From positions 452,382 to 516,381 of the forward strand of contig NZ_JAODIW010000008.1 of NCBI RefSeq assembly GCF_026586625.1: a DNA stretch of 64,000 nucleotides, read 5' to 3'. Of the stretch, positions 38,385-64,000 are shown in pieces. Both the position numbers and the translations under genes were made by a program. Source of the stretch: Halobium salinum. GTDB taxonomy: Archaea > Halobacteriota > Halobacteria > Halobacteriales > Haloferacaceae. The number at the start of each line of letters is the position of its first letter. Position 1 is the stretch's first letter. The notes under the pieces were generated by a model. The model was not told the DNA's origin and made no database searches. It saw only the letters and a list, made by a program, of their open reading frames with translations.

Positions 38385-40265
38385 ATGACAGACGACAACC
38401 TCCACCGACGACGGTTCCTCAAGGCGACGGGGAGCGCGGCGGCCGCAGTGGCTGTCGCTGGCTGTACAGGCGGCGACTCCTCCGGTAACGAGTCCGGCGG
38501 CTCGACGAACGAGAGCGAGACCACCGGCACCGGCGGGAGCAACGAGTCCACCAGCGGCGAGGGGACGCAGGACGTCGAGGTCGACGGCGACACGCTCAGC
38601 CTCGTCAACTCCACGATGACGACGCTGGACCCGGTCGCGTCGACCGACACTGCCTCCGGGACGGTCATCACGCAGGTGTTCGACGCGCTGATGAACTACC
38701 CGAACGGCGAGACCAGCGTCGAGAACCTCCTCGCGTCGGAGTACCAGAACTCCGAGGACTTCCAGACGTACACGTTCACGCTGAAGGACGCGACGTTCCA
38801 CAACGGCGACTCGGTCACCGCACAAGACTTCGTCTACTCGTTCAAGCGGCTGGCCGCGTCGCCCAACTCGAAGCGTTCGTACTTCATCCTCGACTCCCTC
38901 GGGGTCAAACACGAGACCGAGGAGGACAGCGAGGGCAACGAGGTCCTGAAGCCCGACTCGCTCGGCGTCACCGCCGAGGACGAGAAGACGCTCACGGTTG
39001 AGCTCTCCCAGCCGTTCCACTCCGCACTGGAGATGCTCGCGTACTCCTCCTTCGCGGCGGTTCCGCAGGGCGCGGTCGGCGAGACGCCCGCCGACGAGGT
39101 CGGTAGCGACGGGCAGCCGACGACGACGTACAACGAGTTCGCGACGAGCAACCCGGTCGGCGCCGGCCCCTACACCTTCGATACGTGGGAGCAGGGGACC
39201 GAGGCCGAAGTCTCGGCGTACTCGGACTACCACGACGGGGAGCCGGCGAACGCCGGCGTCCACTGGCAGATCATCGAGGACACGTCCGCGCGTTACAACT
39301 TCGCGATGAACAAGAACGCGGACATCTTCGGCATCCCGTCCTCGAAGTACGACCCCAACAAGGTCAGCATCGAGAACACGGACGACAAGGGCCGGAAGTT
39401 CGGCACCTACGGGAGCCTGCGTAACGGCGACACGGCCAACTACATGTCGACGCCGCTCATCAACACCTTCTACATCGGCTTCAACATGCAGGCCGTCCCG
39501 AAGGAGGTCCGGCAGGCGTTCGCCTACGTCATGAACCAGCAGACGATGGTTCAGCAGGTGTTCAAGGGGCGCGGGAAGCCCGCATACCACCTGACCCCGC
39601 CGCCGGTGTTCCCGAACGAGAACTACGACCAGCACGCCGAGGAGAACTACCCGTACGGGTACAACGAGTCTCAGATCGACCAGGCGCGGCAGGTCATGGA
39701 GGAGGCCGGCTACGGACCGGACAACATGTACGAGGTCCAGTGGACCCAGTACGACTCCACCGTCTGGGAGGAGATGGCGAAGATTCTCCGCGACCAGCTC
39801 CAAGCGGCCCACATCAAGATGAGCATCGAGAAGGCACCGTTCTCCACGCTCGTCAAGCGCGGGACGAACGGCAATCTCGAGGCGTACACCCTCGGGTGGA
39901 TCGCCGACTGGCCCGCGGCGGACAACTTCATGCAGCTCATCAACCCGCCGCAGACGGACACCTCGACCTCCGACGCCATCTCGTACATCAACTGGTCCTC
40001 GGACAACGGCTCGGCGGCGAACACGGCCAAGGAGGCGTTCACGAAGGTCCAGAACAACCTCGCGCCGACGGATTCGGCGAAGCAGACCCGGAACGAGGCG
40101 TACCTCACGATGGAGGAGGCCAACTGGGAGGACGTCGGCTTCCTCAACGTCTACCACCAGACCGGCGAACGCTTCTGGTACGACTCGGTCGAGTACCCGC
40201 CGTTCGGCGGCATGGACTACAGCCGCCAGAAGTACGACGACGTGAAGGTCGACCGCTCCGACTGA
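38385..40265 (+). CDS. Solute-binding lipoprotein, family 5 (oligopeptide/dipeptide type)
   Basis: A 626-residue extracytoplasmic substrate-binding protein. The N-terminus carries a twin-arginine signal (RRRFLKATG, residues 8-16) ending in lipobox AVAGC with the lipid-anchored Cys27, then a Ser/Glu/Thr-rich linker to about residue 70. The SBP_bac_5 body shows TFHNGDSVTAQDFVYSFKRL, VGAGPYTFDTWEQG, IGFNMQAVPKEVRQAFAYVMN and the late YTLGWIADWPAADNFMQL. Such proteins feed peptides or nickel to ABC importers. No permease or ATPase gene follows. A T-tract (TTTCTTTTTG, 40303-40311) shortly after the stop may terminate the transcript. Confidence 0.93.
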   Translation: MTDDNLHRRRFLKATGSAAAAVAVAGCTGGDSSGNESGGSTNESETTGTGGSNESTSGEGTQDVEVDGDTLSLVNSTMTTLDPVASTDTASGTVITQVFDALMNYPNGETSVENLLASEYQNSEDFQTYTFTLKDATFHNGDSVTAQDFVYSFKRLAASPNSKRSYFILDSLGVKHETEEDSEGNEVLKPDSLGVTAEDEKTLTVELSQPFHSALEMLAYSSFAAVPQGAVGETPADEVGSDGQPTTTYNEFATSNPVGAGPYTFDTWEQGTEAEVSAYSDYHDGEPANAGVHWQIIEDTSARYNFAMNKNADIFGIPSSKYDPNKVSIENTDDKGRKFGTYGSLRNGDTANYMSTPLINTFYIGFNMQAVPKEVRQAFAYVMNQQTMVQQVFKGRGKPAYHLTPPPVFPNENYDQHAEENYPYGYNESQIDQARQVMEEAGYGPDNMYEVQWTQYDSTVWEEMAKILRDQLQAAHIKMSIEKAPFSTLVKRGTNGNLEAYTLGWIADWPAADNFMQLINPPQTDTSTSDAISYINWSSDNGSAANTAKEAFTKVQNNLAPTDSAKQTRNEAYLTMEEANWEDVGFLNVYHQTGERFWYDSVEYPPFGGMDYSRQKYDDVKVDRSD

Positions 40266-42049: not shown

Positions 42050-42388
42050 TCGGCCGGTCTCGGAGGTCCGACGCTCCATCCGCGCTCGTTCTCGGTGCGC
42101 TCGCCGGTCGACGTCGCCCGCGACCGACTGCGCACGCCAACCGATTCCGTTCGTTGGTCGGCTCCGACCCCCGGCCTGTCGTCGGCTCCTCACTCTACCA
42201 CCGACCGACCGGACCGGCCGTGAGTGGGAGGTCCGGACGAGGGTGCCGCGAGGCTGAATCGTCGACTTCAGTCACCCCGACGCATTTAGGGCAGAGGTGA
42301 GTTAGGCCCCTATGCCGTACTGTGATACGGTATCACGGGACGTGGGTGCGAATCGAGACAGTATCGACCGGAGCGCGGGGTGGTCGGC
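42050..42388. other. Upstream region of the second substrate-binding protein gene
   Basis: No gene is present. It contains the palindrome at 42322-42336 and a TATA-like CAGTATCG near 42357-42364, about 28 bp before the GTG at 42389. Confidence 0.45.
42322..42336. promoter_or_regulatory. Perfect 15-bp palindrome upstream of the second substrate-binding protein
   Basis: GTGATACGGTATCAC is a perfect inverted repeat around one G, centred about 60 bp before the start codon and just upstream of the TATA-like element. This is where haloarchaeal activators or repressors usually bind. It differs from the TTTACCG/CGGTAAA repeat before the first paralogue. Confidence 0.5.
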
Positions 42389-44239
42389 GTGACCGACGCC
42401 GAGGAGTCCGTCTCCCGACGACGGTTCCTGCAGGCGACCGGTGGGACGGCCGCGGCGGTCGGCCTCGCCGGCTGTACCGGCGGGAACGACGACGCCGGCG
42501 GTGGGGGCGGCGGTGACGGCACCGAGACGGCCGCCACGAACACCACCGCGACGACGGACGGAACGACCGAGTCCGGCGGCGAGGGGACACCCGAGGGGAC
42601 GCTCAACCTCGTCAACGCGACGATGGACACGCTCGACCCGGTGGCCGCGGCCGACACGGCCTCGGGCGAGGTCATCCAGCAACTGTACGACGGGCTGACG
42701 AACTACGTCAACGGGACGACGGCCGTCGAACCGTTGCTCGCGAAGGGGTTCGAGGCCAGCGACGACTACACGACGTACACGTTCGACCTGCAGAAGGGGG
42801 CGACGTTCCACGACGGGAGCGAGGTCACCGCGGAGGACTTCGTGTACGCGTTCGAGCGACTGGCCGGGTCGGAGAACTCCCGCCGGTCGTACTTCATCCT
42901 CGACTCGCTGTCGGTCGAACACGACACGGAGGGCGAGGAGTACAAGCCCGGGTCGCTCGCGGTCGAAGCCGTCGACGACTACACCCTGAAGCTGTCGCTC
43001 TCGAAGCCGTTCCACGCCACGACCGAGATGCTCTCGTACTCCTCGTTCGCGGCGGTACCCCAGGGAATCGTCGGCGACGTCGAGGGTCACGACGGGCAGG
43101 TCCGGTACGAGCAGTTCGCGACCGCCTCCCCGACCGGCGCGGGCCCGTTCGAGTTCGAGACGTGGGAGCAGGGGACCGAGGCCGAGGTCTCCCGCTACGA
43201 CGACTACTACGACGGAGATGCGAACGTAGAGCGTATCCACTGGCAGATAATCTCGGACCCGAACGCGGCCTACAACTACGGCCAGAACCGGAACTCGGAC
43301 GTCGTCAGCATCCCGACCTCGAAGTACGACCCGAGCAAGGTTCAAGTCGAGGAGACGGACGACAAGGGCCGGAAGTTCGGCACCTACGGACCGCTGCGAA
43401 ACGGGGAGACGGCACAGTACATGGCGGCGCCGCAGATCGGCACCTACTACGCCGGGTTCAACATGCAGGCGGTGCCCAAGCCGGTGCGACAGGCGTTCGC
43501 CTACGTGCTGAACCAGGAGCTGATGGTCGACCAGGTGTTCAAGGGGCGCGGCCAGCCGGCGTACCACCTGACGCCGCCGCCCATCTTCCCGAACCAGAAC
43601 TACGAGCAGCACGCGGAGGAGTACCCCTACGGGTACGGCGAGTCGAACATCGAGAAGGCGAAGCAGGTCATGGAAGAGGCCGGGTACGGGCCGAACGACC
43701 AGTTCGAGCTCAACTGGACGCAGTACGACTCGAACACCTGGGAGTCGATGGCGAAGATTCTCCGCGATCAGCTCTCGGCGGCGCACGTCTCGATGAGCAT
43801 CGAGAAGGCGCCGTTCTCCACGCTGCTGAAGCGCGGCCGGAACGGGAACCTCGAGGCGTACTCGCTCGGATGGATCGCCGACTGGCCCGCGCCGGACAAC
43901 TTCATGCAGCTGCTGAACCCGCCACAGACGGACACGTCGAGTTCCGACGCCATCATGTACACGAACTGGTCGTCGGAGACCGGCAGCGCGGCGGAAGCGG
44001 CGGAGAGCGCGTACAACGAGATTGTCGACAACCTCGCGCCGACGGACGCGGCGAACCGGGCGCGCAACGAGGCCACGCTCGCGATGGAGGAGGCCAACTG
44101 GGAGGACGTCTCCGTCGCGCCCGTCTACCACAGCGTCGACGAGCGGTTCTACTACGACTGGCTGGAGATCGAACCGTTCGGCGGCATGGGACCGAGCCGA
44201 CAGAAGTACACCGACGCACGGATTACCAACGGGGAGTAG
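42389..44239 (+). CDS. Solute-binding lipoprotein, family 5, second paralogue
   Basis: A 616-residue paralogue of 38385-40265. The twin-arginine signal (SRRRFLQATG) and lipobox LAGC with Cys29 are followed by a Gly/Thr linker and the SBP_bac_5 domain (FHDGSEVTAEDFVYAFERL, TGAGPFEFETWEQG, AGFNMQAVPKPVRQAFAYVLN, LEAYSLGWIADWPAPDNFMQL). Sequence is clearly conserved with the first copy throughout, so duplication is recent in family terms. The GTG at 42389 gives MTDAEESV, matching the other copy's MTDDN start. GTG at 42380 is an alternative. No transporter subunits adjoin it. Confidence 0.92.
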   Translation: MTDAEESVSRRRFLQATGGTAAAVGLAGCTGGNDDAGGGGGGDGTETAATNTTATTDGTTESGGEGTPEGTLNLVNATMDTLDPVAAADTASGEVIQQLYDGLTNYVNGTTAVEPLLAKGFEASDDYTTYTFDLQKGATFHDGSEVTAEDFVYAFERLAGSENSRRSYFILDSLSVEHDTEGEEYKPGSLAVEAVDDYTLKLSLSKPFHATTEMLSYSSFAAVPQGIVGDVEGHDGQVRYEQFATASPTGAGPFEFETWEQGTEAEVSRYDDYYDGDANVERIHWQIISDPNAAYNYGQNRNSDVVSIPTSKYDPSKVQVEETDDKGRKFGTYGPLRNGETAQYMAAPQIGTYYAGFNMQAVPKPVRQAFAYVLNQELMVDQVFKGRGQPAYHLTPPPIFPNQNYEQHAEEYPYGYGESNIEKAKQVMEEAGYGPNDQFELNWTQYDSNTWESMAKILRDQLSAAHVSMSIEKAPFSTLLKRGRNGNLEAYSLGWIADWPAPDNFMQLLNPPQTDTSSSDAIMYTNWSSETGSAAEAAESAYNEIVDNLAPTDAANRARNEATLAMEEANWEDVSVAPVYHSVDERFYYDWLEIEPFGGMGPSRQKYTDARITNGE

Positions 44240-50398: not shown

Positions 50399-51982
50399 AT
50401 GCCAATGGTTGACAGTGACGACGATTCGACCGACGGCGCAGTCGTCCGCGTCCCGGTCGGGTCGGCGAACGAAGGGCGAGCCCGACGGTTGGTCGACGCC
50501 GCCCACGACGCTGCAGGCGGCGGTGTCACCGTCGTCGAGACCGGGCCCACGGGGGTGGACACGTCCGAGCCGCTGGTCGCACTCACCGCGGGCGGACGGA
50601 CGACGCTTCACGGGGGGCTCACTCCGGACGGCGTTCGCACGCTGGTCGAGGCGGCCGCCGACGGCGACCTCGGGGCCGAACGCGCGCGCTCGAGCGTCGA
50701 GCACGACACGGAGACCGACGCCTTCCCGACCCCCGACACGGGGCCGCTCTCGGTCGGGCGGCGTCGCGTGCTCGCCCGCGCCGGGTGGACCGACCCCACC
50801 GGGGTCGAGGCCGACGAGCCGTTCGCGGCCGACCGCGCGGCCGACGCCGGCGACGAGGTGCGCGAGCGACTCGCCGAGGTCGGTCTGCTCGGCCGCGGCC
50901 GCGGCGACGGCGCCCCGGACACGCAGGTGAGCGAGGAGTGGGAGGTCGCCCGCCGGACCGACGGCGACCCGGTCGTCGTCGTCAACGGGAACGAGGCCGA
51001 CCCGCGCAACGACACGGACCGACTGCTGCTCGAGTCGGACCCCGTCGCCGTGCTCGACGGCGCGCTCGCGGTCGCCGAACTGGTCGGCGCCGACGACGTG
51101 GTCGTCTACCTGAACGAGGCCGACGACCTCGCGCGACGGCGCGTCCACGGCGTCGTGAACGCGGTGGCCGACGCGGTCGACGCCGACCACGACACCCTCC
51201 CCGAAATCGTCGCCGGCCCGGACCGGTACATCGCCGGCGAGCCGACGATGGCGCTCGAGTCCCTGGAGGGCAACGACCGCCTCGAAGCCCGCCTGCGCCC
51301 CCCGACGCCGGCCCGACACGGCATCTACGGACGGCCGACGGTGATTCACACCCCCCGGACGCTGGCACAGGTCCGGCGGGCGATTCTCTCCCCCGAGGAG
51401 TACGACCCCGACGACGCCGACCCCGGCACCCGTCTCGTCTCCGTCACCGGCGACGTGGACGGGTCGGCGGTCGTCGAGATTCCGACGGGCGGGTCGCTCG
51501 CGACGGCCGCCGAGGCGGTCGGCTTCGAAGGGAACCCGAAGCTGGCGGTCGTCGGCGGGCAGTTCGGCGGCCTCACGCGGACGCTCGACCACCCGGCGAG
51601 CGCTCCTGGACTCCGCAGTGCCGACCTCGGGACGGCCGGCGTCGTCGAACTGTTCGACGACGGGGCCTGCGCGCTGGCGGCGGTCGGCCGGCGGGCGCGC
51701 TTCGGTGAGGAGGAGAACTGCGGACGCTGTGTCCCCTGTCGCGAGGGGTCGAAACAGCTGACCGGGATGTTGCGCGACATCTACGACGGCGAGTACCGGG
51801 ACGCGAAGCTGCGGGAACTCGCCCGCGTCGCGCGCGAGTCGAGCACCTGTTCGTTCGGCCGGGAGTTGGCCCGCACGGTCCTCACCGGCGTGGACCAGTT
51901 CGAGAACGAGTTCGCGGCCCACGCCGAGGGACGCTGTCCCGCCGGCGAGTGCGGTAGCGAAGGACACGAGGGACACACATGA
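50399..51982 (+). CDS. NuoF-like flavoprotein subunit of the formate dehydrogenase complex
   Basis: A 527-residue protein resembling the NuoF/HoxF 51-kDa subunit. The N-terminal 170 residues include a thioredoxin-like or accessory portion. Later comes an SLBB-type segment (GTRLVSVTGDVDGSAVVEIPTGGSL), then the [4Fe-4S] region with the cysteines of EENCGRCVPCREGSKQLTGM and a distal Cys in SSTCSFGREL. The FMN/NAD-binding Gly-rich motif typical of NuoF is weak. Its stop overlaps the fdhA start (ATGA), so the product is the electron-transfer partner of the next gene. The ATG at 50399 or 50405 are both possible starts. Confidence 0.85.
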   Translation: MPMVDSDDDSTDGAVVRVPVGSANEGRARRLVDAAHDAAGGGVTVVETGPTGVDTSEPLVALTAGGRTTLHGGLTPDGVRTLVEAAADGDLGAERARSSVEHDTETDAFPTPDTGPLSVGRRRVLARAGWTDPTGVEADEPFAADRAADAGDEVRERLAEVGLLGRGRGDGAPDTQVSEEWEVARRTDGDPVVVVNGNEADPRNDTDRLLLESDPVAVLDGALAVAELVGADDVVVYLNEADDLARRRVHGVVNAVADAVDADHDTLPEIVAGPDRYIAGEPTMALESLEGNDRLEARLRPPTPARHGIYGRPTVIHTPRTLAQVRRAILSPEEYDPDDADPGTRLVSVTGDVDGSAVVEIPTGGSLATAAEAVGFEGNPKLAVVGGQFGGLTRTLDHPASAPGLRSADLGTAGVVELFDDGACALAAVGRRARFGEEENCGRCVPCREGSKQLTGMLRDIYDGEYRDAKLRELARVARESSTCSFGRELARTVLTGVDQFENEFAAHAEGRCPAGECGSEGHEGHT

Positions 51983-54900
51983 GCACCGACGAGTACACCG
52001 ACGACCCGACAGGCAGCAGCGAGTCGGCGCCGGCGGACCCCCTTCCGGGCGTCCCCGGCGTCGAGGACCCCCGCCCGAGCACCCCGCTGACGGAGGACTT
52101 CAACGACGGGACGGCGAACGACCCCGACGTCGGCACCCCCGGCGAGGAGATGACCCACGTGACGGTCGACGGCGAGCCCGTCGCCGTCCCGCCCGGCTCG
52201 ACCGTCATCGAGGCGATGGAGGCGCTCGGCGCCGACGAGGACGTACCCGCGCTCTGTTACTACGACCGAGGCACCGAGCAGGCCGAGAACATCGGCCCGC
52301 GCTCGGAGTGTCGCACCTGCATGGTCGACACCGAGGAACACGGGTTGGTCCCCTCCTGTTCGTTCCCCGCCGAGGACGGGCTGACGGTCCGCACCGACGC
52401 GGAGGACGCGGCGGAGGCCCGCGAGGTGAACTTGGACCTCGTCCTCTCGAATCACAACCTCCGGTGTACGACCTGCGGGAAGAACGGCCAGTGCGAACTG
52501 CAGGACACCTCCATCGAGCAGGGCGTCAACGAGCCCCGCTACGGCGTCTTCGAGGAGCGCGACGAGTACGAGCCCATCGACGACACCAGCGAGGTCATCC
52601 AGATAGACCGCAACAAGTGTATCCTCTGTAACCGCTGTGTCGAGGCCTGCAACGACGTGCAGGTCGAGGGCGTCCTCCGGATGGAGGGGAACGCCGGCGA
52701 CATGCGAATCGCGTTCCAGAACGACTCGGATACGTTCGAGGACTCCACCTGCGTCTCCTGTGGCCACTGCGTCACCGTCTGTCCGACCGGCTCGCTCGTC
52801 GAGCAGGGGCTGACGAACGCGGCGACCATCCCACTCCCCGGGTTCAACCAGAAGAACTCCATCGGGAAGGTCATCGAGAGCCCGGCCCCGGAGACCGCCG
52901 ACGGCGCCGCCGCGCCGAACCGAGGCGTGCCCGGCGCCGACGAAGACGAGGAGCTCACGGGCGTCTCACGGTTCATGGCGAAGGCCAAGCGGGGCGCGTC
53001 GGACCTCAAAGAGCGCGTCCGTCAGGACGGTCTCGAAGGGGTCGAACACGTCGCCGAGAAGGCCGCGTCCGAGTCGATGACCATCGGTCAGCTGTTCGAC
53101 GTGTCGCAGGTCGTCAGCGAGACGCGGCGCTCGCGCATCACGAAGGCCGAGACGACCTGTAACTTCTGTGCGGTCGGCTGTCGGTTCGACCTCTACGGTC
53201 GTGACGGCGAGGTGCTCGGGGTGCGGCCCGCCGACCCCGAGGCGACGCCCGCCAACGACTTCTCCACCTGCGTCAAGGGGAAGTTCGGCTACGACTTCGC
53301 CAACAGCGACGACCGCCTCGAACACCCGCTCATCAAGGAGGACGGCGAGTTCCGCGAGGCCTCGTGGGACGAGGCGCTCGACCGCATCCACGCGGAACTC
53401 TCGGGCATCCAGGAGGAGCACGGCCAACACTCCGTGGCGGTCACCTCCTCCTCGAAGTGTACGAACGAGGAGAACTTCCTCAACCAGAAGTTCGCCCGGC
53501 AGGTGCTCGGCACGCCGAACGTCGACAACTGCGCCCGGCTCTGTCACTCCTCGACGGTCACGGCGCTCAAACAGGTGCTCGGTTACGGCGCGATGTCGAA
53601 CCGCATCAACGAGGACATCGGCGAGACCGACTGCTACCTCATCACCGGGTCGAACACGACCGAATCCCACCCGGTGCTCGCGACGCGCATCAAGCAGAAC
53701 GTCCGCGACGGCGCCGACCTGTTCGTCTTCGACCCCCGGAAGGTCGGCATCGCCGAGCACGCCGACCAGTACAGCCGGCCGAACCCCGGCACCGACATCG
53801 CGTGGATAAACGGGCTCATCCGCTACATCGTCGAGCACGACCTCCACGCGGAGGAGTTCATCGAGGAGCGCACGAAGCACTTCGACGAACTCGTCGAGAA
53901 GGTCGACCCGTTCACCCCCGAGAAGGTCGAGGAGCTGACGGGCGTCCCCGAGGAGGAACTCGTCAACGCGGCGCAGACCATCGGCGAGGCAGACACCTGC
54001 ATCTTCGGCTGGGCGATGGGGATGACCCAGCACGCCCACGGCACCCGAAACCTGCTCGCGCTGACGAACCTCGCGCTCGTCACCGGCAACCTCGGCAAGC
54101 CCCGCGCCGGCGTCTCGCCGTTCCGCGGCCAGAACAACGTCCAGGGCGGCGGCGGCGACATGGGTCCCGCCCCGCACAACCTCCCCGGCTATCAGGACCC
54201 GACCGACGAGGAGGTCGCACGGAAGTTCGAGGCCGAGTGGGGTGAGCGCCCGCCCGAGGAGGTCGGCCTGCGCCTGCCCGAGCAGTTCGAGGAGATGAAG
54301 GAGGGCAACATCCGCGGCATGTTCATCATGGGGGAGAATCCCGTGCTCTCCGAACCGGACATCCGCGACGCCGAGGAGTCCATCGGCGAACTCGACTTCC
54401 TCGCGGTGCAGGACATCTTCCTCACCGAGACCGCGGAGTTCGCGGACGTGGTTCTCCCGGCCGCCTCCGGCGCCGAGAAGCTCGGCACGCAGACCAACAC
54501 GGAGCGGCGCATCCAGATGGTCCGACCGGCTATCGAGCCGCCGGGCGAGGCCAAGCGCGACCTCGACATCCTGATGGAGCTCGCCGAACGCTGGGGGTAC
54601 GACTGGCGCTCGAAGTACGACGGCCCGGCCGACGTGATGGACGAGATTGCCCGACTGGTCCCCATCTACGGCGGCGTCAGCTACGACCGCCTCGAGGAGA
54701 TGCCCGACGGCATCCAGTGGCCCTGCGAGGACGAGGACGACCCCGGCACACCCTACCTCTACGAGGACGAGTTCAACTTCGAGGACGGAAAGGCCCGGTT
54801 CGTCCCCGCCGACTACGCCGGTCCCGTGGAGCTTCCCGACGAGGAGTTCCCGCTGATGCTGTCGACCGGCCGGGTGCTGTATCACTGGCACACGGGGACG

Positions 54901-55293
54901 ATGACCCGGCGCGTCGAGGCGCTGATGGAGCAGGTGCCGGAGAGCTTCGTCACCATCCACCCGGAGATGGCGGAGGAACTCGGCGTCGTCGACGGGGAGT
55001 ACGTCAAGGTGACCTCCCGGCGCGGCGACATCACGGTGAAGGCGAACGTCGAGGACCAGTCCGACCCCGGCGTCGTGTTCATCCCGATGCACTTCGTCCA
55101 CGGGGCGGTGAACGAGCTCACCCAACACGAACTCGACCCGGACTCCTACATCCCCGAGTTCAAGGTGACGAGCGTGAAGGTGGAGCCGGTCGGCCCGAAC
55201 CCCGACGGCGACACCCTGCCGGTCGACCCCCCCGTCGACGAGGGGACGACCGGGGCGGAGGGTGACTCGGGGCCGGTTCCGGGGGACGACTGA
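51979..55293 (+). CDS. fdhA: Formate dehydrogenase alpha subunit with NuoG-like N-terminus
   Basis: A 1104-residue molybdopterin oxidoreductase. After a disordered 55 residues comes a [2Fe-2S] ferredoxin domain (about 57-135), then a HNLRCTTCGKNGQCEL cluster segment, two [4Fe-4S] pairs (CILCNRCVEACNDV and CVSCGHCVTVCPTGS), a linker and the catalytic domain. That begins with TTCNFCAVGCRFDLYGRD (C394, C397, C401). The metal-binding residue is Cys522, followed by His523 in ARLCHSSTV, the position of selenocysteine/cysteine in formate dehydrogenases. The pterin-guanine region and the C-terminal domain (MTRRVEALMEQVPESFVTIHP) follow. No signal peptide is present, so it is a cytoplasmic NAD-type or ferredoxin-type enzyme that oxidises formate or reduces CO2. 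Confidence 0.92.
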   Translation: MSTDEYTDDPTGSSESAPADPLPGVPGVEDPRPSTPLTEDFNDGTANDPDVGTPGEEMTHVTVDGEPVAVPPGSTVIEAMEALGADEDVPALCYYDRGTEQAENIGPRSECRTCMVDTEEHGLVPSCSFPAEDGLTVRTDAEDAAEAREVNLDLVLSNHNLRCTTCGKNGQCELQDTSIEQGVNEPRYGVFEERDEYEPIDDTSEVIQIDRNKCILCNRCVEACNDVQVEGVLRMEGNAGDMRIAFQNDSDTFEDSTCVSCGHCVTVCPTGSLVEQGLTNAATIPLPGFNQKNSIGKVIESPAPETADGAAAPNRGVPGADEDEELTGVSRFMAKAKRGASDLKERVRQDGLEGVEHVAEKAASESMTIGQLFDVSQVVSETRRSRITKAETTCNFCAVGCRFDLYGRDGEVLGVRPADPEATPANDFSTCVKGKFGYDFANSDDRLEHPLIKEDGEFREASWDEALDRIHAELSGIQEEHGQHSVAVTSSSKCTNEENFLNQKFARQVLGTPNVDNCARLCHSSTVTALKQVLGYGAMSNRINEDIGETDCYLITGSNTTESHPVLATRIKQNVRDGADLFVFDPRKVGIAEHADQYSRPNPGTDIAWINGLIRYIVEHDLHAEEFIEERTKHFDELVEKVDPFTPEKVEELTGVPEEELVNAAQTIGEADTCIFGWAMGMTQHAHGTRNLLALTNLALVTGNLGKPRAGVSPFRGQNNVQGGGGDMGPAPHNLPGYQDPTDEEVARKFEAEWGERPPEEVGLRLPEQFEEMKEGNIRGMFIMGENPVLSEPDIRDAEESIGELDFLAVQDIFLTETAEFADVVLPAASGAEKLGTQTNTERRIQMVRPAIEPPGEAKRDLDILMELAERWGYDWRSKYDGPADVMDEIARLVPIYGGVSYDRLEEMPDGIQWPCEDEDDPGTPYLYEDEFNFEDGKARFVPADYAGPVELPDEEFPLMLSTGRVLYHWHTGTMTRRVEALMEQVPESFVTIHPEMAEELGVVDGEYVKVTSRRGDITVKANVEDQSDPGVVFIPMHFVHGAVNELTQHELDPDSYIPEFKVTSVKVEPVGPNPDGDTLPVDPPVDEGTTGAEGDSGPVPGDD

Positions 55294-55740: not shown

Positions 55741-58263
<2,523 letters not shown>

Positions 58264-60132
58264 CTAATCGTCGCAGGCGGCGGCGTCACTCGACCTACCG
58301 ACCGGGGTCGTGTCGTCGACGAGGTCCGACAGGTCCAGCCGGCGTAGCGTCGAGCGCGTCGGGACGCCGTGTTCGTCCCACCCGCGTCGGTCGTAGTACG
58401 CGTCGAGCGCGGCCTCGAACTCCGCGGGGTCGAGACCGACGTCCTCGCCGGACCGGGCGAGCGCCATCGGCAACGCGTCGTCCGCGCGGCCGAACCCCTC
58501 GCGGACGTTGAACAGTCGCGTGAGGTTCCAGACGCGCTCGCCGACCCGGCGGAGGTCGGCGGCGTCGTAGTCGAGGCCGACGGCGCGGAGCCACTCCGCG
58601 CCGAGGTCGGTCTCGAACGCCTCGGCGGCGAGGTCGTCGACGACGAGCGACCAGAGGGCGGAGCGGAGGTCCTGTTCGGCCGCGACGGCCGCCGCTCGGC
58701 GGGCCGGCGACCAGTCCGCGACGGCGAACACCTCCTCCACGACGGGCCGGGCGCGGCGGTGGCAGGCTCCCCGGTCGGAGGTAGCGTAGGCGAGTGCCAT
58801 CGCGGGCGAGCGCCGCGGGTCGTACGAGGAGAGCGACATGGCCTTCACCGTCGGGACGGCGTCTGCGTTCCCCCGGCGCTCGGCCGCGCGCTCGACCCCC
58901 TCGGCGAGGTCGTCGCCGAGCGGCGTCGACCGGGTCGCGATTTCCTCGAGCAGGCGCCGGGCGGCCTCGTCGTCGCCGAAGTCGACGTCGACGCCGTCGG
59001 CGTGCATCACCCACGCGACGGCGTTGCCCGCGGAGATGACGTCGAGCCCGAGTCGGTCACAGCGTCCGCCGAGCGCCGCCACCGCGTCGAAATCGGCGAG
59101 GTCGAGGTTCGAGCCGAGCGAGATGGGTGTCGCGCCGCGCGGAACCGGCTCCGCGCCGTCGTCGGCCTCGACGCGGAACCCGCCGGGCACCGCGTCGTCC
59201 GCTCGCTCGCGGGCGACGGCCGCGGCGCGAACCGCCTCGATGCCGAGGTCGGCGGCGGGGTCGGTCTCGCCGCCGTCGCCACCGGCGGTCCCGTCGCCGC
59301 TCCACCCTCGCGTCGGCAACACGCCCGTCTCAGCCGCGAAGTCGACCGTCTCCATCGTCTCGCCCGCGCCGTACCAGCGCCCGCTGTCGGTCTCGGCGAG
59401 CCGGCGGTCGTACTCCCGACGGAGGGCGTCGAGACCGTCGCGGTCGGGGGAGTCGTCACGGCCGGCGAAATCAGTGTCAGCGTGGGTGTCGGCACGGTCG
59501 TCGCCGTCGACGACGACGGCCTTCAGCCGCTTCGCCCCGAGGACGGCGCCCGCGCCGCCGCGGCCGGCCTGGTGGTCGCCGCCGTCGGAGGCGACGGTCG
59601 CGTAGCGGACCCGGTTCTCGCCCGCCGGGCCGATGCAGGCGACCGCCCGGCGGTCGGCGTCGGGGGCGTCGGCGAGGAGACGGTCCGTGGTCTCGACGGC
59701 GTCCAGCCCCCACAGGTCGGTGGCGGGCTCGAGCGTCGCCTCGCCGTCGGCGACGTGGAGCGCGACCGGGTCCTCGCTCTCGCCCTCGACCAGGACGGCG
59801 AGACAGTCCCCGAGCGCGCCCGCGAGGCGGGCCGGGAAGTCGCCGCCGGCGTAGGAGTCGAGGAAGGTCCCCGTCAGCGGGGACTTCGTGACGACCGCGT
59901 CGGTCGCGTGACCGGGAGTGAGCCCGGTGACGGGGCCGAGGCTGAACAGGAGGACGTTGTCGGGGCCGAGCGGGTCCGTCCCCGGTTCCAACTCGTCGTA
60001 GAGGTAGCGCGCGCCGAGCCCCTTCCCGCCGACGTACTGCCGGCGCCAGCGCTCCGGAATCGGCTCCCGTTCGGCGGTACCCGCCGTGAGGTCGACCCGG
60101 AGGAGTCCACCCGGCGGCGTGTCGTCGGTCAC
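58264..60132 (-). CDS. Aldehyde ferredoxin oxidoreductase-like protein lacking the [4Fe-4S] ligands
   Basis: A 622-residue homologue of tungsten-dependent aldehyde ferredoxin oxidoreductase. Domain 1 is well kept: GLLRVDLTAGTAEREPIP, RQYVGGKGLGARYLYDEL, LFSLGPVTGLTPGHATDAVVTKSPLTGTF, DSYAGGDFPARLAG, AVACIGPAGENRVRYATVASDGGDHQAGRGGAGAVLGAKRLKAV. A CDRLGLDVISAGN loop at about 358-370 matches one pterin-binding motif. However, only five cysteines exist (110, 166, 358, 457 and near 620), and the CxxCxxxC block expected at about 300-315 is absent, as is the distal DSLGLC-type motif. It may bind the cofactor without a cluster, or may have a non-redox role. Start ATG at 60130-60132. Confidence 0.85.
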   Translation of the reverse strand: MTDDTPPGGLLRVDLTAGTAEREPIPERWRRQYVGGKGLGARYLYDELEPGTDPLGPDNVLLFSLGPVTGLTPGHATDAVVTKSPLTGTFLDSYAGGDFPARLAGALGDCLAVLVEGESEDPVALHVADGEATLEPATDLWGLDAVETTDRLLADAPDADRRAVACIGPAGENRVRYATVASDGGDHQAGRGGAGAVLGAKRLKAVVVDGDDRADTHADTDFAGRDDSPDRDGLDALRREYDRRLAETDSGRWYGAGETMETVDFAAETGVLPTRGWSGDGTAGGDGGETDPAADLGIEAVRAAAVARERADDAVPGGFRVEADDGAEPVPRGATPISLGSNLDLADFDAVAALGGRCDRLGLDVISAGNAVAWVMHADGVDVDFGDDEAARRLLEEIATRSTPLGDDLAEGVERAAERRGNADAVPTVKAMSLSSYDPRRSPAMALAYATSDRGACHRRARPVVEEVFAVADWSPARRAAAVAAEQDLRSALWSLVVDDLAAEAFETDLGAEWLRAVGLDYDAADLRRVGERVWNLTRLFNVREGFGRADDALPMALARSGEDVGLDPAEFEAALDAYYDRRGWDEHGVPTRSTLRRLDLSDLVDDTTPVGRSSDAAACDD

Positions 60133-60211: not shown

Positions 60212-61060
60212 TCACTCCTCGAGCGCGACGAGGTCGATGCCGCCGTTGCCGGTCCGGATACGGAGCCGATTCCCGCCGTCGCCCAGTCGTCCCTCGACCC
60301 GGCGAGCGGGGCGCTCTCCCGGGTCGAGCGCGAGGTCGTCGACGTCGATGGAGCCGAGTTCCGTCGTCGCCAGCAGTTCGGCGTCGAGGTCGGCGCCCAG
60401 CGCGACGTCGACGTTCCCGTTGCTCGTCCGGACGGTCGTGTCCCGGCGAATCGCCGGAACCTCCGCGTCGATGGAGCCGTTGCTCGTCTCGATGCCGTCG
60501 ACGCCGGCCACCCCCGACACGTCGACCGACCCGTTGGCAGCGGTCACGGTGACGAACCCGTCGACGTTCCGCACCTCGATGGCTCCGTTCGCACTCTCTA
60601 CGGTGAGGTCCCCGGCCGTGTTTCCGACCGTCACCCGGCCGTTGGCGGTCGTCGTCTCCGCGACCCGCGTCCCGGCCGGGACGGCGAGGTCGAGTCCGAC
60701 GCTCACCGTCCGTCGAGCCTCGTCGGTCCCGTACACCGTCTCGACGAGGTAGGCGGCTCCGTCCCCCTCTTCGCCGTCGGACGCGGAGTCGGAGCCGGTC
60801 TCGACGGTCACCTCGTCGAACCGGCCGGCGCTCGTCGGAGCGCGTTTCGTAACCGTCAGCACGACCCCGTCGCCGTCGTGCGTGTCGACGACGACGGAAC
60901 CGTTCGTGTTTCGAACGCGGACCGCGGCGCCGTCGGGGACGTCGAGGTCCGTGGACGTGGTCTCTTCGGGGGACGTTCCGGGGGCCGTACAGCCGGCGAG
61001 GCCGACCAGCCCGGCGGCGCCCGCGAGGCCGGTCGACCGGAGGAGGGTGCGGCGACGCAT
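60212..61060 (-). CDS. DUF4097-type beta-repeat lipoprotein
   Basis: A 282-residue exported protein. It begins with a twin-arginine signal and lipobox (RRRTLLRSTGLAGAAGLVGLAGC, lipid Cys24), then a strand-rich domain with repeated short motifs: VRVRNTNGSVVVDTHDG, TVESANGAIEVRN, TVTAANGSVDVSG, ETSNGSIDAEV, VRTSNGNVDVALG, IRTGNGGIDLVAL. This SNGS(I/V)D repeat is the pattern of DUF4097 adhesin-like beta-solenoids. The ATG at 61058-61060 is set by the signal. Function is unknown, and such proteins sit on the cell surface. It diverges from mobA. Confidence 0.85.
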   Translation of the reverse strand: MRRRTLLRSTGLAGAAGLVGLAGCTAPGTSPEETTSTDLDVPDGAAVRVRNTNGSVVVDTHDGDGVVLTVTKRAPTSAGRFDEVTVETGSDSASDGEEGDGAAYLVETVYGTDEARRTVSVGLDLAVPAGTRVAETTTANGRVTVGNTAGDLTVESANGAIEVRNVDGFVTVTAANGSVDVSGVAGVDGIETSNGSIDAEVPAIRRDTTVRTSNGNVDVALGADLDAELLATTELGSIDVDDLALDPGERPARRVEGRLGDGGNRLRIRTGNGGIDLVALEE

Positions 61061-61220
61061 ACCGGAGAAACGTCTCAGTCGCTCATCAACTCTCCGGGGG
61101 CGAGCGAACCGTTCGCACGAGCCGGGAGCGGCTGTCGCCGGGGGACCGACTGCGCTCGCGACGTGGGTTCGATTCGACCGTGCCGCCGCCCTCATACGAC
61201 CTGGCCTCGAAGCCACGGCC

Positions 61221-61949
61221 ATGCGCGCCGCAGTGATAATCGCCGGCGGCCGGTCGACCCGCTTCGGCGACGCCGACAAAGCCGTCGCCGACCTCGCCGG
61301 CGTCCCGATGACCCGCCGGGTCGCCGACCGACTCGTCACCGTCGTCGACCGCGTCGTCGTCAACTGTCGGGCCGACCAGCGCGACGCGCTCGAACGGGCG
61401 ATGGCCGGCTACCCGCTCCCCGTCGCGTACGCGGTCGACCCCGACCCAGACGAGGGACCGATGGCGGGCATCCGCACCGGGGTACGAGCGGTCGCGGCGG
61501 GCGCCGACGAGGCGAGCGGGAACGGGGCGGCCGACCCGGACGCCTACGCCCTCGTCGTCGCCTGCGACATGCCCTTCGTCGACCCCGAGTTCGTCGACTA
61601 CCTCTTCGAGCGTGCGGCGGGCCACGAGGCCGCGGTCCCCCAGCTCGACGACGAGTGGTTCCAGACGACACAGGCCGTCTACCGCGCCGGGCCGATGGCC
61701 GACGCCTGCGAGGCCGCGCTCGACGCCGGCGAGCGGAAGATTCTCGCGCCTCTGGAACGGTTGGAGTGGGTCGTCGTCGACGACGCCGAGATTCGGGCGC
61801 GGACGACGCCCGAGACCTTCGAGAACTGCAACACGCGCGCGGAGTTCGAGGCGGCGACCGAGCGGCTCGCGGCGGACGACGGCGGCGACGGTGGTGGGGA
61901 CCGGTCCGATGGCGACGGCGGCGACGGTCACGAGGGCGGTGTCGGTTGA
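61221..61949 (+). CDS. mobA: Molybdenum cofactor guanylyltransferase
   Basis: A 242-residue nucleotidyltransferase of the MobA family, which turns molybdopterin into the guanine dinucleotide form. AVIIAGGRSTRFGDADKAVADLAG is the nucleotide-binding start (with LAGG-like IIAGG and the K after GDAD), YALVVACDMPFVDPEFVDYL contains the metal-binding DxP-like CDMPF, and FENCNTRAEFEAATERL closes the domain. The last 30 residues are Gly/Asp-rich tail. Formate dehydrogenase encoded 6 kb away is a likely user of the product. The start ATG at 61221 is the family start. Confidence 0.92.
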   Translation: MRAAVIIAGGRSTRFGDADKAVADLAGVPMTRRVADRLVTVVDRVVVNCRADQRDALERAMAGYPLPVAYAVDPDPDEGPMAGIRTGVRAVAAGADEASGNGAADPDAYALVVACDMPFVDPEFVDYLFERAAGHEAAVPQLDDEWFQTTQAVYRAGPMADACEAALDAGERKILAPLERLEWVVVDDAEIRARTTPETFENCNTRAEFEAATERLAADDGGDGGGDRSDGDGGDGHEGGVG

Positions 61950-63314: not shown

Positions 63315-64000
63315 CTATCGTTCGACCACGTCGACCAACGGCTCGGCCGCGGTCATCCGGGCCAGCACCACCCGCGGTACGTCCGCCCGGGCGAGCACCT
63401 CGTCGGCGACCTCGCGGGCGACCGTCTCCAACTCCTCGTCGTCGACCATGTTGACGAGCGGAATCGCGGTCGCACCCTCGGGGACGGCCTTCAGCCCGCC
63501 GTGTTCGCTCGCGAGCACGCGCGCGACGTGTTCCGACCGAATCTCGCCGCCGGGTTCGAGTCCGGCGACTTCGGCGACCAGCTCGGGCCGGTGGACCCGC
63601 TCCTCGGTGAGCGACTCGCCGACGACCCGCGCGCTCGCGACCGGCACGACGGTGTCCGCGGCGTCGGGGATTCGAGGCTCGCGCTCGTTCGGCGCCTTCA
63701 GCCACCGCGTCCGCGCGCCGTCCGCTTTGACGAGCACCGGCCCGTCGTGGGCGGCCGCGAGGCGGTCGACCGTCGCCGGGCCGTAGCCGCGGTAGCGGTC
63801 CTCGCGCTCGCGCTCCGGGACGAGTCCGAGCGGGAAGTCCGCGGGGCCGGCGTCGTCGAGGGCGACGACCGGGTCGTCGGCGACGACCACCCGGGAGACC
63901 TGCTCGTCGAAGATGGGGATGCGGACCGTCGCGGTGACGACCGCCCGGTCGAGCCGCGATGCGAGGACGTACAGCGTCGTCTTCTTGCCCCCGGCGCCGA
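63315..64000 (-). CDS. yqeC: YqeC-like selenium/molybdenum-hydroxylase accessory protein (5' end outside the window)
   Basis: About 228 residues are visible and the start lies beyond 64000. The visible part opens with a P-loop-like GAGGKKTTLYVLASRL (near 63950-64000). It continues RAVVTATVRIPIFDEQ, VSRVVVADDPVVALDDAGPADFPLGLVPEREREDRYRGYGPATVDRLAAAH (described, about 63740-63910), VLVKADGARTRWLKAPNEREPRIP, TVVPVASARVVGESLTEERVHRPELVAEVAGL and VLASEHGGLKAVPEGATAIPLVNMVDD. This matches YqeC proteins, which accompany selenium-dependent molybdenum hydroxylases. The partner enzymes are not in the window. Confidence 0.8.
   Translation of the reverse strand, partial: GAGGKKTTLYVLASRLDRAVVTATVRIPIFDEQVSRVVVADDPVVALDDAGPADFPLGLVPEREREDRYRGYGPATVDRLAAAHDGPVLVKADGARTRWLKAPNEREPRIPDAADTVVPVASARVVGESLTEERVHRPELVAEVAGLEPGGEIRSEHVARVLASEHGGLKAVPEGATAIPLVNMVDDEELETVAREVADEVLARADVPRVVLARMTAAEPLVDVVER

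Follow-up and report, generated by a model that had tools for sequence, protein, structure and literature searches.

FdhD is the usual sulfur-transfer and cofactor chaperone of formate dehydrogenases (FDHs); to our knowledge, the FDHs studied so far have their cofactor both sulfurated and delivered by this protein. The tungsten FDH of Methylorubrum needs it as well (PMC13197769), and the occurrence of haloarchaeal FDHs without FdhD was named an open problem in a 2023 review (PMC10609526). Among the proteins that handle related cofactors, the aldehyde ferredoxin oxidoreductase (AOR) family has a metal site in which Thr243, Glu313, Tyr427 and His448 surround the tungstopterin and hardly vary from member to member, according to a 2026 review of the WOR enzymes (PMC13328260). 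AOR-family proteins bind a nucleotide-free bis-pterin, and the bis-Mo-molybdopterin (bis-Mo-MPT) of one of them, YdhV, is converted to bis-molybdopterin guanine dinucleotide (bis-MGD) by MobA in vitro (PMC9103625). Here we describe AOR*, a protein encoded in a 64,000-nucleotide stretch of Halobium salinum DNA (contig NZ_JAODIW010000008.1, positions 452,382 to 516,381; hereafter the window), which has the AOR fold but lacks the cluster ligands and the catalytic glutamate. What is new is the association of this protein with FDH, YqeC and MobA in organisms known to be without FdhD.

The AOR* gene (58264..60132, minus strand) is an intact reading frame of 622 amino acids with a GTG start, a start site that agrees with those of its relatives (MTD...LLRVDL). 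The Pfam domains AFOR_N (2.5e-66) and AFOR_C (9.2e-81) cover the protein end to end; these were the only domains found, with no DNA-binding or other added domain in the Pfam scan and no homology to the FdhD family (PF02634). The solved structures most related to AOR* are AOR and FOR enzymes. The AlphaFold2 model (mean pLDDT 76, pTM 0.81), which has low confidence at about residues 249-343, the former cluster loop, superposes on Pyrococcus furiosus AOR (1aor) with a Z score of 37.8 and a root-mean-square deviation of 2.3 Å over 505 residues; taking 1aor and 1b25 together, the values are Z ∼38 and 2.3-2.5 Å over 505-516 residues. The full-length domain matches, the solved relatives and the model superposition thus identify an AOR fold. 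Descent and fold place AOR* in the AOR superfamily, but its residues at the defining positions are not those of an AOR enzyme.

We compared 120 sequences of the AOR* clade with 19 cysteine-bearing AORs, using P. furiosus (Pf) numbering. An earlier note on this DNA, made from the sequence alone, had observed that all ligands of the [4Fe-4S] cluster are gone, and this is what we found: the CxxCxxxC motif is replaced by a segment at about residues 306-329 (59145..59215, minus strand) reading RERADDAVPGGFRVEADD, in which F319 is 97% conserved across the clade, and the fourth ligand, Cys494, is D499 in 120/120 sequences. Of the two pterin-binding motifs (Pf 338-343 and 489-494), the first is kept as CDxLGxD at residues 358-364; the note was correct in finding this loop, as well as domain 1, preserved. 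The second is lost, as the note had also stated: Asp489 is W494 in every one of the 120 sequences, and WSLVVDDL (about residues 494-501; 58630..58653, minus strand) replaces both the distal motif and the fourth cluster cysteine. The changes that the note listed were correct, but the list was partial, as the catalytic Glu313 is missing too. The Glu311-Tyr312-Glu313 loop is invariant in the cysteine-bearing AORs (19/19), while the window protein has PRGATPI in its place (about residues 331-337; 59120..59139, minus strand) and the clade has Arg-Gly followed by Ala, Gly or Ser, with R332 in 119/120, G333 in 120/120 and glutamate at 334 in 0/120. The Glu313 position itself is Ala334 in the window protein and Ala, Gly or Ser in 120/120. 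The other metal-site residues are retained: Thr243 in 118/120, Tyr427 in 119/120 and His448 in 120/120, corresponding to T259, Y437 and H458 of the window protein. Cluster ligands and acid have therefore been swapped in concert while the metal-site residues stay, a pattern that leaves AOR* without an electron exit or a catalytic glutamate but with much of the socket intact.

AOR* orthologues are found in 104 of the 148 genomes of the family (corrected count), mostly at 54-66% identity, and a scan of named genomes returned 221 relatives (80 of them retrieved) from about 46 genera or lineages. The CxxCxxxC motif occurs in none of the 88 orthologues tested. In a quick maximum-likelihood tree all AOR* sequences lie behind one branch (support 100) nested within cysteine-bearing AORs, and the nearest relatives of the clade (L122-L129, ∼42% identity) retain the cysteines; a single loss event explains the cysteine pattern of the clade. 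The ratio of nonsynonymous to synonymous substitutions (dN/dS, pairwise Nei-Gojobori) between close AOR* pairs is mostly 0.07-0.27, with a few pairs higher, which is close to the range of the cysteine-bearing sister proteins (0.05-0.15). The earlier note had considered the case in which relatives all carry the cysteines and selection on this copy is relaxed; what we observe is orthologues without cysteines, under purifying selection. We found no description of the AOR* clade in the open-access papers searched for haloarchaeal AOR or FDH maturation.

Two candidates were rejected in this part of the analysis. Copies of 44-47% identity in several genomes are not further AOR* proteins: they have the CxxCxxxC motif and make up the sister clade, and genome G123, whose copy belongs to that clade, was counted as AOR*-negative. 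Selenocysteine does not replace cysteine in the window frame, which has no in-frame UGA; a 'TGA inside' flag at locus L031 concerns a match that appears to extend beyond the gene's own stop. As a separate observation, a third AOR paralogue of the same genome (L134, G000:C13:800430-801020; 564 aa) has a very long branch, contains CSACAFAC and has an Asp where the Cys preceding the metal-site His normally sits.

The gene neighborhood links AOR* to FDH and to cofactor genes. We counted genes within 10 kb of AOR* at the 64 loci with full flanks: an FDH gene was present at 47/64, YqeC at 30/64, MobA at 20/64, and any of the three at 57/64. Near the cysteine-bearing sister clade, any of the three was found at 0/9 loci (8.9-17 kb each), and judging by how many FDH genes a genome carries, we estimate that chance would place an FDH in such a stretch at a few per cent of loci. 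The linkage of AOR* to these genes spans many genera and differing gene orders. The linked FDHs are of three architectures, all with the active-site Cys-His and Arg: a long cytosolic type with NuoF; a Tat type with FdhB, cytochrome b and a TorD-like chaperone; and a 704-aa type. AOR* often adjoins yqeC or mobA with the FDH gene distant (e.g. Halorubrum loci L064, L099 and L113). The FDH link was absent from the earlier note, whose observation of a cluster-less AOR homologue is confirmed above and extended by this gene context.

In the window, the gene order is nuoF-like, FDH alpha, katG, AOR*, a DUF4097 gene, mobA, one further gene and yqeC. The NuoF-like FDH partner subunit (50399..51982, plus strand; PF10589, PF01512) overlaps the start of the FDH alpha gene (51979..55293, plus strand), which encodes the long type with N-terminal Fe-S domains (TIGR01591, 811 bits against a cut-off of 666) and has the active-site Cys-His and Arg. 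The KatG catalase-peroxidase gene (55741..57888, minus strand), between FDH and AOR*, is probably a neighbor outside the mechanism. The frame for a MobA-like molybdenum cofactor guanylyltransferase (60882..61949, plus strand; PF12804, 1.9e-34; TIGR02665, 4.8e-27, below cut-off) probably has its true start further inside, ahead of the domain at residue 117. The yqeC gene (63315..64000, minus strand; PF19842 and TIGR03172 over cut-off) has its 5' end past the window edge, with the remainder in L135. The same set is found on a plasmid of Haladaptatus salinisoli, independently annotated, in the order yqeC, molybdenum cofactor guanylyltransferase, AOR*, hypothetical, FDH, nuoF-like, hypothetical, katG.

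Several other features of these and related loci deserve mention in their own right. At L140 (G247) a different, cysteine-bearing AOR (CRGCQLEC) adjoins Tat-type FDH, FdhB, TorD-like and HdrA/FlpD-like genes, and an HdrA/FlpD-like fusion (∼711 aa) lies regularly next to the Tat-type FDH in non-methanogenic haloarchaea (L038, L040, L067, L081 and others). DUF7124 is immediately downstream of AOR*, with DUF7405 close by, in many loci (L038, L040, L070 and others). Six loci (L142, L143, L144, L148, L156, L157) contain an FDH-like set of nuoF, FDH and a second oxidoreductase (DNRARxCH), in genomes without FdhD, AOR* or YqeC. Elsewhere in the window, two oligopeptide/nickel-type ABC substrate-binding proteins of similar size (38385-40265 and 42380-44239) are encoded on the same strand a few kb apart.

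Co-occurrence across the 148 genomes follows the linkage. YqeC is present in 103/104 AOR*-bearing genomes vs. 15/44 without AOR*, and FDH, with the Tat type searched separately, in 103/104 AOR*-bearing genomes, the exception being a 62%-complete genome. Within one genus (g28), 7 genomes have both AOR* and the long FDH, and 8 have neither. FdhD (PF02634) was found in 0/148 genomes of the family and 0/195 of the order (67 genera); the same search recovered it from eight control genomes, E. coli and Methanosarcina among them. YqeC is carried by 118/148 genomes. A selenium-cofactor system was rejected, since a SelD above the cut-off is present in just one of the 148 genomes (G038, where it adjoins a second YqeC copy). 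For the same reason haloarchaeal YqeC should not be taken as a marker of selenium use, and the family name (selenium cofactor protein) is misleading here. In C. difficile, deletion of yqeC had little effect (PMC11448449).

How might FDHs obtain their cofactor in such cells? A cluster-less AOR fold adjoins mobA, yqeC and FDH in cells that lack FdhD, so the simplest reading is that of a carrier. We put at about even the chance that AOR* is a redox-silenced AOR fold with an accessory role in the maturation of some haloarchaeal FDHs. The earlier note had offered a different chemistry, a regulatory role or cofactor storage; this was too open, and is partly supported in that the gene context favors the cofactor-handling branch, for FDH. 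In the mechanism that we propose, AOR* would bind a nucleotide-free Mo/W-pterin, like other AOR-family proteins; unable to turn over because no cluster drains electrons, it would hold the cofactor or hand it on. MobA would next add guanosine monophosphate (GMP) to the pterin passed on by AOR*, and YqeC and AOR* would share the steps of FdhD (protected transfer and/or sulfuration) ahead of insertion into the client, the neighboring class of FDH. The fuller version, in which a tungstopterin AOR enzyme lost its cluster and acid, became a dedicated Mo/W-pterin carrier and now takes the place of FdhD, together with YqeC and MobA, for a large group of haloarchaeal FDHs, is more tentative, and we regard it as possible rather than probable.

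Several points weigh against an accessory role in FDH maturation. Cofactor binding, transfer and an effect on FDH are properties that we infer for AOR*, and a normal bis-pterin may not fit the protein because the distal pterin motif is gone. The genomes share ancestry and are not independent samples, so that Fisher values overstate the significance of the counts; the pattern within g28 and the differing gene orders are better evidence than the genome-wide numbers. FDH without AOR* occurs in 19/119 FDH-bearing genomes. Where the FDH region of AOR*-negative genomes was read (G019 and G112 left out), the FDHs are mostly short or of an 'NCNRLCH' class: the short FDH, often adjoining YqeC, is found without AOR*, and the 'NCNRLCH' class occurs, among others, in six genomes without AOR* or YqeC. 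Two genomes (G051 and G092) have a long FDH without AOR*. The FDH tree is biased, its AOR*-positive sequences having mostly been picked by linkage. AOR* as a universal replacement of FdhD is unsupported, as two FDH classes occur without it; it is at most a class-specific helper. Moreover, linkage alone is also compatible with AOR* being a metabolic enzyme or a subunit of FDH.

The main rival is an enzyme: a W/Mo-pterin protein performing non-redox or internally balanced C1 chemistry (formate/formaldehyde), like acetylene hydratase, would need no exit cluster. The retained metal-site Thr, Tyr and His are consistent with this, as are the betaine-demethylation or formate-tetrahydrofolate-ligase surroundings of some AOR* loci. 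However, the catalytic Glu313 is gone throughout the clade, the recurrent mobA and yqeC point to a role in making the cofactor and not in a metabolic pathway, and the linkage tracks FDH over several FDH architectures; we judge this explanation unlikely. Still less likely, AOR* would have no part in cofactor assembly and would be either a subunit of the FDH complex with a structural or regulatory function or a regulator that senses the cofactor. The tight linkage to FDH genes would suit such a protein, but its partners would have to be FDHs of three differing architectures, AOR* often stands beside yqeC or mobA and far from FDH, and it has no domain beyond the AFOR pair. An uncharged Mo/W-pterin reservoir for all molybdoenzymes of the cell would also explain the AOR fold and the mobA linkage, and a WtpC-like ABC ATPase is present in some loci; nevertheless, the recurrent enzyme partner is FDH, and AOR* presence follows particular FDH classes within one genus, which makes a general reservoir very improbable. 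The loss of several catalytic residues could speak for an ordinary AOR gene in recent decay. This reading is refuted, as the earlier note had anticipated, because the loss is clade-wide and of single origin, dN/dS is mostly low and similar to that of the sisters, and several of the lost positions are fixed as new residues invariant in 120/120, in a gene carried by 104/148 genomes.

AOR* as an FDH maturation factor is a specific and conserved candidate that could explain in part how haloarchaeal FDHs mature without FdhD. If the proposal is true, a metal-cofactor enzyme evolved into a chaperone for such a cofactor: the wire and the acid were lost and the socket was kept. Genes of this type should not be annotated as aldehyde oxidoreductases.

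It is instructive to compare AOR* with the known systems. With the AOR/WOR family (P. furiosus AOR, 1aor, and FOR, 1b25; electron-bifurcating AOR, 9mqx; H. volcanii WOR83, 9q1t) it shares the whole fold, both Pfam domains, the metal-site Thr, Tyr and His and the proximal pterin motif; in contrast to these enzymes, it has neither [4Fe-4S] ligands nor Glu313, has Trp for the distal pterin Asp, and is encoded with FDH, YqeC and MobA. E. coli YdhV, the bis-Mo-MPT binder (PMC9103625), belongs to the same family, and the best NCBIfam match of AOR* is to the YdhV-type PRK09849 (163.7 bits, far below the cut-off of 868), but AOR* differs from YdhV in lacking the cluster ligands. FdhD, absent from all haloarchaea searched, is an unrelated protein that has in common with AOR* only the proposed client, FDH, and the proposed step, cofactor delivery or sulfuration. 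Finally, in the YqeB/YqeC selenium-dependent molybdenum hydroxylase system (PMC2276186) YqeC stands beside molybdopterin nucleotidyltransferases, as it does here; the haloarchaeal case differs in the near absence of SelD (1/148) and in its proposed client, which is FDH.
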